64,000 bases of DNA from Leucothrix mucor DSM 2157 (GTDB lineage Bacteria > Pseudomonadota > Gammaproteobacteria > Thiotrichales > Thiotrichaceae). The stretch covers positions 2,216,655-2,280,654 of the forward strand of contig NZ_ATTE01000001.1 of assembly GCF_000419525.1 (NCBI RefSeq), read 5' to 3'. The position numbers were made by a program, and so were the translations under genes. Of this stretch, positions 46,395-54,581 are shown in pieces. The first letter of the stretch is position 1. The number at the start of each line of letters is the position of its first letter. Below the pieces are notes generated by a model, which had not been told where the DNA came from, ran no database searches, and saw only the letters and a program-made list of their open reading frames with translations.

Positions 46395-49300
46395 TTAACC
46401 CGCCTGATGTAGCATCTCTTCAGCTTCGCGTCGCTGATCATCATTACCTTCATTGATCACTTCTTCCAGCGTGCTGCGAGCACCTTCGACATCACCCATA
46501 TCCATGTAAGCACGTGCTAAGTCCAGCTTAGTACTGATCTGTGCTTCCACCAGGTCATCGTCGCTATCGGTTTCTAAGTCTAGAAAAGATAGGTCATCAT
46601 CAATTTCACCAAGCATGTCGTGGTTAGTTGCCACTTCTGCTTTTGGTGCCATTTTGTAAACGCTGTTCTCTGGCAGAATCTTACCAACACCTTCACTAGA
46701 ACCATCCAGTGCCAGATTCAGATTAGCCATGCTCAGGTCATTGTTATCCAAGTCGCTTAGCAGCTCAGTGTTGCTTTCGCCCAGATCAAGGTCATTGAAA
46801 TCATCAAAATCGAAGTTATCAATGTCAAAGTCAGTCGTCAGCTCTTCTTCTTTTTTATCGGCGGCATCAGGTGAAGCTGCAACTGGCGCCTCATCTTCGA
46901 TATCGTCATCTAACTCAAAGTCGCTGAAGTCGAAATCCATATTGTCTAGATCAGCATCTGGCAACTCATCAGTTACTTGCTCTGCTTTAGTATCCAAGTC
47001 CAGACCATCAAGATCCAAATCGTCTAAGCCATCCAAGTCAGCAGTGGTTTCTTCTTTGATGTCACCAGACGCTAATAAGCTATCCAGATCCATCTCATCA
47101 AAATCCAGTGACTCAGGAGTCTCTACCTTTGGCATCTCAAGATCATCAGTCAGATCGCCAACGGTATCGGCAGCACTGTCTTTCAAATCCCCCAGACCGG
47201 CATTCAGATCGTCAAGACCGTTACCAGCCATGTCACCTAAATCATCCAGCTTGTCTTTGCCTGAGTCTGCAATCGCTTTACCCGCAGTGACTGCAATGCC
47301 ACCTGCGACCGCTGCAGCACCCGCAGCTTTAGCAACGCCACCCATTCCGCCTGAAATATCAGACTTTAAGCTGTCTGGTACGCCACCGGTTGAGAACAAA
47401 GAGTTACCTGGCAGCATCTTACGACCCCAGCCACTCACTTTATCCCACAGTGCATCTTTATTCGGACCTTCAAGCTGTGCGAACTCTGCCGCTTCGGTAG
47501 CAAAGGCATCTTTGTTATCTGAAGCGTGGTAGTTTTCAAGCAACTTAGCACGGTACTCAAGGTTATCTGGTTGGCTAGCAATCGCCTTCTTCAGCTCAAC
47601 TTCTGCCTGCTCGTGCAAACCATATACGATGTAAACATCGGCTTCCTGAAGAATGTCATCTTCGCTCTGATCCTGATCTTGTACTGGTGCCGCAGCTGCT
47701 GCTTTTGGCGCAGCCGGTGTCGGAGTCGGTGCAGCAACTTCGTTGTTCAGCTCATCCATTGGATCAGCACTGAAGTCTGCTTTAGGGTTCTTGGTGTCGC
47801 CTAAGCCAGCAAACGGATCGCTGCTATTTGCATCACCTGATGGCTCATTTGGCTCATCACCGAATGTACTAGTACCCGGAGAGAACGTCGGATCATCAAA
47901 ATCGATCGGACTGTAATCTTCGTATTCTTCTTTGGCATTGCGACGACGCATGAACAAGAAGCCTGCCAGTAATGCCAGCAGAGATCCTGCACCCAGTCCC
48001 ATCACCAAAGGAGAGCTCAGCATGCTCAACAAGCCATCATCTTCTTCAACGGCAGCTGGTGCGTTCAGAGCGCTATCAATCTGACTATCCAACTGATCGG
48101 TAACCGGCGGCTGGAAGATTTCAGGTTGCGTGGTATCAGTAATGATCGCCATTGGATCTTCTGATTCACGAACGATGGTACCTTCTGGCGCATCTGCTTC
48201 AGCGAGTTGCTGCTGAATGCCCATGCCCTGCTCAAGTGCCGGATCGCTGGCAATGATATCTGTTTCCAGCTCATCATCGCTAATTGGGAGTGGCGGCTTG
48301 CCTAAGCTTGCCTGAAGTTCCGCTAACTGCTCATTCTTCAGTGTAATCAGACGATTCTTCTTACGTAACAGCGACTCAAGCTCGGTAACCCGGGATTGCA
48401 GTTCGTTGTTTTCCTGAGTTCTAGCCGTCAAAGACTCACTCGCTAGCGTCAACTGGCGATTCAAGTCATCAAGCTTAGCCTGACCTGCCAGATTCCCGCT
48501 ATTAGCTGAGTTATTGTTCGTTGAGCCCAGAACTTCCATTCTAGCTTCGCTAGTGGTTGGAGCCGTGCTACGAGGTGTCGGTGTATTATTAGTCGCCGCC
48601 GCTTTAGGCGCACTAGCAACTCTGGTTGGTGCTGCACGAGACTTCCAATCAGACGTCTGAGATTTAATTTCCTGACGAGCCTGTGAAATCGTAATGCGTC
48701 GCGCTTCATCAACTGAAGGACGACGTAAATCAACACCAGCTTTTAAGTTATTAATGTTACGACGACGGAAAGCAGTCGGGTTCGCTTCAAACAGAGCAAT
48801 CATCATCTGTTCGGTACGTACGCCGTTATAACCCACTTTCTTCGCTACTTTATAAAGTGTGTCACCGCTTCTTACGCGGTAAGTACGACCAACACCTGTA
48901 CGGCTCTTAGTGGCGGCTGCCTGAGCAAGCGGCGCACTTGGACGTCTCAAGCCATCATTAACCGGCGCGGCGGCCTGTTGCTGACGAGCTTGCTGCTGTT
49001 GCGCAATAATGCGTTGGCGCTGTTGCTCACGTGCTGCAGTCTGATTAGCAATCGCTTGTTGCTGGCGTTGCTGTTGTGATTGCAGAGTATTGACAGGATC
49101 AGGACGTACACCGGCCGTGTTACTGGCAATGGAGGTACCTGGCTGCATCAATACAGGTGGGTCTAATAGCACCGTGTATTCTTTTAACAACTGACCGTTA
49201 GGCCAGCTCACTTCCAATAGGAAGTTAATGAAAGGCTCTTTAATCGCTTCAGCAGAACTGACCAGAATAACTGGCTTGCCGTTCTGAATCGTGGAACGAA

Positions 49301-49541
49301 AACGTAGACTGTTTAAATAGTTCGGACGGTCAATACCGACTCGACTAAACACTGATGGCGAAGCAACTTTGACACGAAGTTGACTTGGGTCAGTGCCATT
49401 AGTAGAGAGTAAGTCTATTTTAGCGTTAAAAGGTTGGTTAAGGTGTGAAGCAGACTCAATCTCACCTAAGCCTAGTGCAAGCGTTACTCCTGGGTAGGTA
49501 ATAGCCATGCAGATAGCTAAACTTAAGGTCTTTTTATTCAC
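46395..49541 (-). CDS. fimV: Peptidoglycan-binding pole-organising protein FimV
   Basis: 1048 residues from GTG at 49541 with AAGGGG upstream. It has a signal peptide, the FimV N-terminal domain (LGEIESASHLNQPFNAKIDL), a LysM motif (YRVRSGDTLYKVAKKVGYNG, ~218-237), coiled-coil (~355-410), one membrane helix (SPLVMGLGAGSLLALLAGFL, ~505-525), a long acidic low-complexity region rich in DLD/DDLD, and the conserved C-terminal TPR-like domain (KLDLARAYMDMGDVEGARST). It organises type IV pilus and polar assemblies. A notable acidic run near 760-920 contributes many Asp-Leu repeats. Confidence 0.94.
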   Translation of the reverse strand: MNKKTLSLAICMAITYPGVTLALGLGEIESASHLNQPFNAKIDLLSTNGTDPSQLRVKVASPSVFSRVGIDRPNYLNSLRFRSTIQNGKPVILVSSAEAIKEPFINFLLEVSWPNGQLLKEYTVLLDPPVLMQPGTSIASNTAGVRPDPVNTLQSQQQRQQQAIANQTAAREQQRQRIIAQQQQARQQQAAAPVNDGLRRPSAPLAQAAATKSRTGVGRTYRVRSGDTLYKVAKKVGYNGVRTEQMMIALFEANPTAFRRRNINNLKAGVDLRRPSVDEARRITISQARQEIKSQTSDWKSRAAPTRVASAPKAAATNNTPTPRSTAPTTSEARMEVLGSTNNNSANSGNLAGQAKLDDLNRQLTLASESLTARTQENNELQSRVTELESLLRKKNRLITLKNEQLAELQASLGKPPLPISDDELETDIIASDPALEQGMGIQQQLAEADAPEGTIVRESEDPMAIITDTTQPEIFQPPVTDQLDSQIDSALNAPAAVEEDDGLLSMLSSPLVMGLGAGSLLALLAGFLFMRRRNAKEEYEDYSPIDFDDPTFSPGTSTFGDEPNEPSGDANSSDPFAGLGDTKNPKADFSADPMDELNNEVAAPTPTPAAPKAAAAAPVQDQDQSEDDILQEADVYIVYGLHEQAEVELKKAIASQPDNLEYRAKLLENYHASDNKDAFATEAAEFAQLEGPNKDALWDKVSGWGRKMLPGNSLFSTGGVPDSLKSDISGGMGGVAKAAGAAAVAGGIAVTAGKAIADSGKDKLDDLGDMAGNGLDDLNAGLGDLKDSAADTVGDLTDDLEMPKVETPESLDFDEMDLDSLLASGDIKEETTADLDGLDDLDLDGLDLDTKAEQVTDELPDADLDNMDFDFSDFELDDDIEDEAPVAASPDAADKKEEELTTDFDIDNFDFDDFNDLDLGESNTELLSDLDNNDLSMANLNLALDGSSEGVGKILPENSVYKMAPKAEVATNHDMLGEIDDDLSFLDLETDSDDDLVEAQISTKLDLARAYMDMGDVEGARSTLEEVINEGNDDQRREAEEMLHQAG

Positions 49542-49859
49542 TTGTTAATCCCCTTCTTAAGCAATAACGCTCTATCCATTCCATATGTATCACAAGACTT
49601 TGTCTTTCTCGTATTGGCTGTTCGAATCATGAGCGGTGCTTTGTTGTTATTTTATTTATATTCAAGAGTGTGTTACGTATACAAGTTGAGAACATTTGTT
49701 CATTCTGAACTCACCGGAATCAACACGCTTTCCGACCGTGTGTAATTAATAGCAACATACCAATGAATAGTACCTTAATAATTCAATTTAACTGTCAATA
49801 TCTGACGAGTGATTGTCATAATGTGACAATTCACTGTCAGCTTTCAAGCTTTACTAGGA
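49542..49859. other. fimV upstream region, no gene
   Basis: 318 bp between usg and fimV. A 67-codon plus-strand frame here lacks a ribosome site and family features. The notable content is the phased TGTCA array at 49793-49839 (separate entry). Confidence 0.6.
49793..49839. promoter_or_regulatory. Phased operator array: three TGTCA half-sites 21 bp apart
   Basis: TGTCA begins at 49793, 49814 and 49835, exactly 21 bp apart, two turns of the helix. The first two are paired with TGACG and TGACA after a 5-nt spacer (TGTCA-N5-TGAC), the second extended to ATTGTCA/TGACAAT. Same-face spacing suggests cooperative binding of a dimeric regulator, presumably for fimV (starts 252 bp downstream on the minus strand) or read-through from usg. 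The regulator is unidentified. Confidence 0.6.
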
Positions 49860-50882
49860 CTAAAGGTAATCAGTGATTAAAATTTCTGCGATCTGAATAC
49901 TATTTAAAGCAGCACCTTTTCGTACATTATCAGCAACAACCCATAGATTCAAACCATTTGAATAAGACACATCTTCTCTGATTCGACTAACGAAAACGGC
50001 GTCATTATTGACTCCTTCCGTCACTGGCGTCGGATAAACTTTGCCTGCAATGTCATCCATTAGTGTCACTCCGGCCGCTGACATCAGCAATTCTTGTGCC
50101 ACTTCAGCCGTAATTTTCTCACGGGTTTCAATGTGCAGTGACATAGCATGACCAAAGAACACAGGAACCTGTACCGCAGTCGGGTTAACTAAGACCTCTT
50201 CATCCTCCCAAATCTTCTGCGTTTCGGTGAGCATTCTCATTTCTTCGCGGGTATAGCCATTCTCTTCAGCTTCATCAATCTGTGGCAATACGTTGAAAGC
50301 GATTTGTTTGGCGAACACAGAATGCTTAGCCTCACGACCATTCAACAGTTGTGCTGTCTGCGATGCCAACTCCTGAACACCATTCTTACCTGCACCAGAG
50401 ACTGACTGATAGGTCGACGCATTAACTCGCATGACCTTCACTTGCTCGTGAATAGCCTGCAGGGCAACCAGCATCGCAATAGTATTACTGGATGGGGTCG
50501 AGATAATGCCACGGTTGCTGTACTCGGCAATTGCGTGAGCATTTACTTCAGGAATTACCAACGGCACATCGTAGTCAGTGCGGAACTGTGCGGAATGATC
50601 AATTGCCACACAGCCCGCCAAGGCCGCAATCGGTACAAAAGTAGCGGAGACTTCTTCTGAAGTTGCGAAAAAGGCAATTTGTACCTGACTAAAGTCGAAA
50701 TCCTCAAGGCGCGCCACTTTGATGTAAGACCCACCAAACTCCAGTCGGGTGCCCGCTAAGTCATCCGTATCTAAGAGGTGCAGTGTGCCGATCGGGAAAT
50801 CGCGTTCTGCCAGAATGGACAGTAACGTCTCACCGACCGTACCTGTTGCTCCGACTATTGCGATATCGTAAGTGTTGCGCAT
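49860..50882 (-). CDS. usg: Usg-like protein, aspartate-semialdehyde dehydrogenase paralogue lacking the catalytic cysteine
   Basis: 340 residues. NAD(P)-binding GATGTVGETLLSIL and the overall order match Asd. However, the active-site segment reads GIISTPSSNTIAMLVALQ near 122-139, where active enzymes have N-C-S/T; the nucleophile Cys is replaced by Ser and the preceding Asn-Pro-Asn is altered. This matches Usg proteins, which sit before fimV or truA in other gammaproteobacteria. Activity as a dehydrogenase is therefore unlikely; function of Usg is unknown. It is downstream of leuD (51 bp). Confidence 0.82.
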   Translation of the reverse strand: MRNTYDIAIVGATGTVGETLLSILAERDFPIGTLHLLDTDDLAGTRLEFGGSYIKVARLEDFDFSQVQIAFFATSEEVSATFVPIAALAGCVAIDHSAQFRTDYDVPLVIPEVNAHAIAEYSNRGIISTPSSNTIAMLVALQAIHEQVKVMRVNASTYQSVSGAGKNGVQELASQTAQLLNGREAKHSVFAKQIAFNVLPQIDEAEENGYTREEMRMLTETQKIWEDEEVLVNPTAVQVPVFFGHAMSLHIETREKITAEVAQELLMSAAGVTLMDDIAGKVYPTPVTEGVNNDAVFVSRIREDVSYSNGLNLWVVADNVRKGAALNSIQIAEILITDYL

Positions 50883-53952: not shown

Positions 53953-53967
53953 TGTCACAATTTGACA
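53953..53967. promoter_or_regulatory. TGTCA-N5-TGACA site upstream of the DUF11-like gene
   Basis: The same half-sites and 5-nt spacing as the array before fimV, here as a single copy, 95 bp before the start codon. It suggests a shared regulator. Confidence 0.4.
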
Positions 53968-54062
53968 CAAATATGAGTGAAAGCCCGAGATATTCAGTAC
54001 CGATTCATGGCAGCCATCTACCATAAGCCCTGCAACTCGCATTAATACTCCAAGGTAAACTC

Positions 54063-54581
54063 ATGAACACAATCCATAAAAATAATCGGGCGTTCTTTTT
54101 AATCTGCATTTCACTCTTACTCGTGCTGGGTATTCTCAGCTCAGTGACTATGGCGGCAGAAGATCAAATCAAAGTATGGTCAAAAGCGGAAACGAAAGAG
54201 AAAGTAAAAGAAAACGGTAAAGACGTTGAAAAGAAAGTGCCGGCCGTTAAGGCGCTACCAGGCACTATCATTTATTACACGACGGAATTTAAAAACATCA
54301 GCCCAAAATCAGTTGATGGCATCAATATCATCAATCCAATTCCGAAGTTAACCAGCTACATCGACAAATCTGCCTATGGCGATAACACGGACATTACCTT
54401 CTCAGTCGACGGCGGCAAAAGCTGGAATACAGCCGATAAGCTCAAGGTCAAAGGTAAAGACGGCAAGATGACTACGGCTAAAAGTACTAGCTACACTCAC
54501 ATTCGCTGGAAGCATAAAGGACCACTAGCGTCCGGTAAAACAGGTAAGGCTTTGTTTCAGGTTAAGCTGCTAAAGCCCTGA
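54063..54581 (+). CDS. Exported protein with DUF11-like domain
   Basis: 172 residues; AAGGTAAACTC precedes the ATG. A signal peptide or membrane anchor (~10-32, LICISLLLVLGILSSVTMAA) is followed by a lysine-rich stretch and a domain with PGTIIYYTTEFKNISPKSVDGINIINPIP and FSVDGGKSWN, as in conserved DUF11 repeats that occur in surface and envelope proteins. It is alone on the plus strand and abuts the transglycosylase stop. Function unknown; possible envelope structural role. Confidence 0.65.
   Translation: MNTIHKNNRAFFLICISLLLVLGILSSVTMAAEDQIKVWSKAETKEKVKENGKDVEKKVPAVKALPGTIIYYTTEFKNISPKSVDGINIINPIPKLTSYIDKSAYGDNTDITFSVDGGKSWNTADKLKVKGKDGKMTTAKSTSYTHIRWKHKGPLASGKTGKALFQVKLLKP

Follow-up and report, generated by a model that had tools for sequence, protein, structure and literature searches.

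fimV of Leucothrix mucor is probably under the control of the pilin regulator PilR. The window (the whole stretch of 64,000 nucleotides that was analysed) contains, in the gap between fimV and an asd/usg-type gene, an array of five half-sites that we assign with good confidence, on its letters and spacing, to the PilR-type enhancers of the NtrC family. Taken as a whole, the explanation that we favour, with somewhat more belief than doubt, is that this array ties fimV to the pilin regulon and that its likely partner is an intragenic sigma-54 promoter. In our reading, the novelty would lie in the place of the array, downstream of an intragenic sigma-54 promoter; such a promoter with its enhancer in the leader would be an unusual and testable case of activation from downstream. 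FimV/HubP has an organising role at the cell pole and in the assembly of type IV pili, and if fimV answers to the pilin regulator, one switch would serve both pole building and pilin supply. The features are listed in Table 1.

Table 1. Features of the fimV region, in window positions, and loci of the small-RNA family, in genome or locus designations.
Feature	Position	Strand	Basis or remark
fimV, GTG start, FimV/HubP polar landmark protein	46395..49541	-	TIGR03504 and TIGR03505 over cut-off
TATTAAT (candidate -10 element), lying about 12 nt downstream of the box	49745..49751	-	consensus reading only
Box resembling TTCAGTTNNGATTCAT (here TTAAGGTACTATTCATTG), which may be an activator box in the -35 region of a sigma-70-type promoter	49761..49778	-	conserved upstream of fimV in g1, g5 and g8
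Putative PilR-type five-half-site array	49793..49839	-	sequence, shuffles, genus conservation
Half-sites in fimV direction	TGACA 49839-49835, TGTCA 49828-49824, TGACA 49818-49814, CGTCA 49807-49803, TGACA 49797-49793	-	
Aspartate-semialdehyde-dehydrogenase/usg-type gene, host of the sigma-54 site, upstream of fimV	49860..50882	-	profile search
Predicted sigma-54 (-24/-12) promoter TGGCACAAGAATTGCT inside asd/usg	50086..50101	-	predicted start near 50075; consensus match
Small-RNA loci	G000:C1:4071550-4071817, 4050069-4050185, 3159628-3159743	+, -, -	
Small-RNA loci in relatives	L151, L155, L159, L163, L166, L173, L176, L180, L182, L186, L294-L313		

On the plus strand, TGTCA begins at 49793, 49814 and 49835, an exact spacing of 21 bp, as the initial annotation had noticed. 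Of the two inverted partners after 5 nt that it had described, the one at 49814 is perfect (TGTCA-TAATG-TGACA) and the one at 49793 is imperfect, with 4/5 letters (TGTCA-ATATC-TGACG); the TGTCA at 49835 is without an inverted partner. Read on the minus strand towards fimV, the whole becomes TGACA-N6-TGTCA-N5-TGACA-N6-CGTCA-N5-TGACA, that is, five half-sites of alternating orientation that follow each other at about 10.5 bp, or about one helical turn, with intervals of 10, 11 and 21 bp. A helically phased, protein-binding array next to fimV is thus supported by sequence and conservation; of the cooperative binding to one DNA face that had also been proposed, the phasing stands, and cooperativity is suggested by the spacing.

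Phylogenetic footprinting, which had been put forward as a check, found the array with identical spacing at all six genus loci (G000, G002-G006), with the first half-site lost in one species (G002). Within the genus block, 21/25 half-site columns are invariant vs 11/25 of the other columns, and the block as a whole is 64% invariant vs 45% for the rest of the gap; the gap has better conserved stretches, 28 of 311 of equal length scoring higher. Among the 24 readable fimV upstream regions of the family, the core pair TGTCA-N5-TGACA was present in 19, a count that contains one duplicate (L051 and L052 are apparently identical upstream). These 24 come from 30 loci, with L042, L049, L055, L056, L057 and L064 left out for an incomplete locus or no recognised start. 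By genus group, counted manually from a listing, the pair occurs in 6/6 (g1), 7/9 (g5), 5/7 (g8) and 1/2 (g3) regions, and it is absent from the g2, g7 and remaining g3 loci that were read. In two g8 genomes (L044 of G053 and L046 of G056), fimV is immediately preceded by a short fimV-like ORF that looks like a partial tandem copy.

The initial annotation knew of no assigned regulator and considered a new operator type. This part did not hold: the enhancers of pilA promoters that depend on sigma-54 show the same half-site and the same 10-bp pairing, both within the family and class-wide, which points to PilR. A pilin gene with a sigma-54 promoter was recovered from 13 of 18 family genomes (none was found in the other five), and all 13 have at least three exact half-sites above the promoter. 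In 30 pilA regions from across the gammaproteobacteria, picked without regard to TGTCA, the most enriched 6-mer is GTGACA/TGTCAC (24 vs 2.6 expected), and TGACA/TGTCA occurs 42 times vs 11.7 expected. We used 26 of these regions, all from outside the family, for a spacing test (excluded were L235, L255 and L257, of the own family or incomplete, and L256, a duplicate) and found GTCA/TGAC core pairs 10 bp apart 16 times vs 0.05 expected in the order TGACA..TGTCA and 5 times vs 0.06 expected in the order TGTCA..TGACA. The dominant order is the first in the class and the second in the family, which counts against a PilR-type reading. Otherwise the fimV array follows the pilA enhancers: it shares their half-site, TGTCA(C)/(G)TGACA, their pairs at 10 bp and their further half-sites 20-22 bp on. 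It differs from them in its target, fimV, and in that no sigma-54 promoter lies below the array, the candidate being intragenic and some 250 bp above it. Given this half-site, the 10 and 20-21 bp phasing and the conservation, all of them visible in the sequence, PilR would bind the array. The exact pair TGTCA-N5-TGACA occurs 55 times in 12 relatives, vs 22 for a reversed-pattern control, and 12 of the 55 are the fimV site. Of the 43 others we read 40, half of them intergenic and half coding (20 each); an outward sigma-54 site at 30-200 bp accompanies 14/20 intergenic vs 3/20 coding sites. One of the 14 belongs to pilA of G018 (L169), and the other 13 appear to precede non-coding transcripts.

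Because a pilS-pilR-pilA neighbourhood, with a gene encoding an L192-like helix-turn-helix within 1.5 kb of pilA, appears in 17 of the 28 genomes of the class that come from outside the family (manual reading of listings), we call L192 PilR; its gene is preceded by a PilS-like kinase gene, and RpoN is encoded in the genome. NCBIfam gave no match over cut-off for L192 or for the orphan regulator L194, and a structure search returned no chain named PilR, so that we infer the identity of L192 from synteny and helix-turn-helix similarity. The PilR consensus of P. aeruginosa is (N)4-6(C/G)TGTC. The hallmarks of PilR sites are given as TGT-N11-AGA with nearby GTCT elements in passages of PMC6058289 that do not mention fimV, and pilAB of Azoarcus is controlled by PilR and sigma-54 (PMC3262810). 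Titles and the beginnings of abstracts, a scope beyond which most subscription papers lie, contained no report of fimV under PilR or of the small RNAs described below. A site grammar derived from pilA could make PilR regulons readable from sequence in many gammaproteobacteria.

The sole exact match to TGGCAY-N5-YTGCW in the window lies at 50101-50086, on the strand of fimV and some 250 bp ahead of the array; when one mismatch is allowed, the window holds 7 matches, fewer than the shuffled mean of 12.8. At the same place, a sigma-54 site was found in 6/6 genus loci with scores of 19.9-21.1 and in 0/8 of the non-genus loci scored, and none of the 24 fimV upstream regions has a correctly oriented site scoring at least 17.5 between array and fimV. 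The protein reads [VM]A[RQ]ELL at this site, which itself favours sigma-54 letters; given the residues and codon usage, the chance of obtaining these letters in the six species is 0.0086, 0.158, 0.039, 0.096, 0.034 and 0.091. Where two genus species have the same residue in asd/usg, the fraction that also has the same codon is only 0.40-0.51, so that synonymous sites are near saturation. Leucine is invariant in 16 columns, and just 2 of these keep a single codon throughout the six species, the leucine of the sigma-54 site being among them, and no other place in asd/usg, on either strand, scores at least 17 in five of the six species. The intragenic promoter is likely to be real on this sequence evidence. 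From its predicted start, fimV would have a leader of about 534 nt with the array at about +236 to +282.

We propose that PilR, or another activator that shares its DNA specificity, reads the array and thereby ties fimV to the type IV pilin regulon. RNA polymerase with sigma-54 would wait at the promoter inside asd/usg, and phosphorylated PilR bound downstream would loop back to it and drive a fimV mRNA whose leader measures about 530 nt. That the array acts through this promoter we regard as a nearly even call. Intragenic sigma-54 promoters of E. coli have leaders of 360-760 nt (PMC4591121), and the candidate resembles them in being a conserved -24/-12 consensus in sense orientation inside the upstream gene, at a distance from the start codon that falls within this range; it differs in being predicted from sequence, in having PilR instead of NtrC as its putative partner and in the downstream location of the activator sites. 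For the latter, the downstream activating sequence of RocR in Bacillus offers a likeness, an NtrC-family activator working from downstream of a sigma-54 promoter (PMC4941409). The RocR enhancer, however, lies 1.5 kb downstream of its promoter and beyond the gene, whereas the fimV array would lie in the leader of the gene that it controls.

Could the array be a chance arrangement within an AT-rich gap? The single pair TGTCA-N5-TGACA would allow this, since it is at chance level genome-wide, with 5 sites in 5.19 Mb, close to the number that 4^-10 predicts, and we rejected it as a regulon marker within this genome; of the three sites outside the window, two fall inside long ORFs (L033, L034), and the third is part of a terminator-like stem behind nadC (L035). 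The window is likewise ordinary when one mismatch is allowed, its 4 matches being reached in 19/100 shuffles. What is unusual is the array, not the single pair: at least four exact half-sites within 52 bp were reached in 0/300 window shuffles and 7/20,000 intergenic-gap shuffles, and TGTCA three times at exactly 21 bp in 0/20,000 gap shuffles, although some equally spaced 5-mer triple of any kind appears in 1.8% of 500 gap shuffles. The genome scan and shuffles that the initial annotation had called for thus divide: the single pair is unremarkable, the three-half-site pattern has its only mismatch-free place in the genome at fimV, and the array is not equally frequent in shuffled sequence. Chance is already contradicted by the conservation of the sequence in all six genus loci despite saturated synonymous divergence, and we find it scarcely credible. 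It is also very unlikely that the palindromic stretch is an RNA hairpin of the asd/usg transcript, a terminator or processing stem with the DNA phasing as a by-product. The minus-strand RNA does fold well (-18.7 kcal/mol, z -2.8, with 3/200 shuffles as good), and in g5 several of the TGTCA pairs form part of terminator-like stems with T runs behind them. Against this, the six genus sequences show no covariation (89.6% of cells paired vs 89.4% when shuffled, with the covariation score reached by 426/500 shuffles), the fifth half-site is invariant outside the stem, and neither a T run nor a terminator call was found at the array, so that an intrinsic terminator of asd/usg was rejected for this genus.

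Among DNA-binding alternatives, another NtrC-family activator of similar specificity, such as L194 or a GlrR/QseF-like protein, might read the array and the small-RNA promoters, with PilR reading pilA. Several sigma-54 activators are present in G000, and the GlrR/QseF sites on the small-RNA gene glmY are, like ours, TGTC/GACA dyads, placed there upstream of a sigma-54 promoter (PMC8745638). They have the form TGTC-N10-GACA, however, vs TGTC-N7-GACA in the fimV array, and the letters and phasing of the array equal those of the pilA enhancers; we consider this alternative improbable. PhoB, AraC/XylS, CRP and LysR sites were dropped for unfitting spacing or letters. Less improbable, if still on the unlikely side, is that PilR binds the array and acts, as activator or repressor in the manner of FleQ at biofilm promoters, on a sigma-70-type promoter just downstream, the match in asd/usg being incidental or separate. 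We know of no experimental case of PilR at a sigma-70 promoter. The array may nevertheless act at one because the sister genera g5 and g8, which lack the intragenic sigma-54 site, retain the core pair, because the box TTCAGTTNNGATTCAT and a TATA-like element adjoin the array, conserved in g5 and g8 and recognisable in g1, and because FleQ, of the NtrC family like PilR, represses and activates the sigma-70-dependent pel (PMC10723142). FleQ boxes also share with the array a GTCA/TGAC dyad and a tandem layout, but the 14-bp box GTCAAT-N2-ATTGAC has N6 between GTCA and TGAC and the array N5, so that the array is not a FleQ box (PMC10723142). Moreover, a sigma-70 promoter would leave the sigma-54 site that is conserved in 6/6 genus loci without a role.

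The g5 and g8 fimV upstream regions (L043-L063) show the box TTCAGTTNNGATTCAT, whose TTCA repeat has the 11-bp period of OmpR-type regulator sites; a TTTGATATAAAT element follows about 12 nt below it, and conservation is strong. Elsewhere in the window (53953-54010, plus strand), a perfect TGTCA-N5-TGACA (53953-53967) is followed 25 bp later by TTCAGTACCGATTCATGG (at 53993), upstream of a gene for a DUF11-repeat protein (54063-54581); this site and the fimV array are both trailed by the same kind of TTCAG box. We rejected it as a twin promoter because the two relatives that were read (L003, L006) show no TGTCA pair upstream of the orthologue. The TTCAG box was also rejected as a regulon marker: 52 matches with up to two mismatches vs 22 for the reversed control were obtained, and most of those read lie inside long ORFs.

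Returning to PilR-type arrays paired with sigma-54 promoters, we found a structured small-RNA family of about 118 nt that sits, often as tandem copies, behind sigma-54 promoters with TGTCA arrays; it has the A-rich loop AATAAAAATAA and a second hairpin whose loop is CCCC. An alignment of 11 modules located downstream of other arrays showed changes on both sides in 15 of 22 predicted pairs. The model matched in 56/63 family genomes, with four matches in the genome of the window; Rfam gave no match of note for the family and, at gathering thresholds, nothing in the 64-kb window. Of 20 loci from the model search, 19 had enough upstream sequence, and in 18 of these the 200 bp above the best sigma-54 site hold at least three half-sites, a count reached by 7/1271 window stretches away from the array; the model alignment was built from TGTCA-chosen loci and some of the 20 are mutual orthologues, so that the 19 do not count as independent events. 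The distance from the half-sites down to the -24 element is 65-185 bp at the small-RNA genes and falls in a similar range at pilA; at both, unlike at fimV, the array is upstream of the sigma-54 promoter. We tentatively suggest PilSR as a wider master circuit, in which TGTCA arrays with sigma-54 would drive the pilin, FimV (from the asd/usg promoter, with a downstream enhancer) and multicopy structured small RNAs with A-rich and C-rich loops, thereby linking the supply of pili to the building of the pole and to post-transcriptional control.

Behind nadC (L035 1220-1545, minus strand; L181, L184, L190) lies another A-rich non-coding transcript, of a different kind, which has its own sigma-54 promoter (TGGCACGACGATTGCA in L035), with a TGTCA stem just above this promoter and a terminator-like hairpin. 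We take it to resemble the CrcZ-type RNAs.
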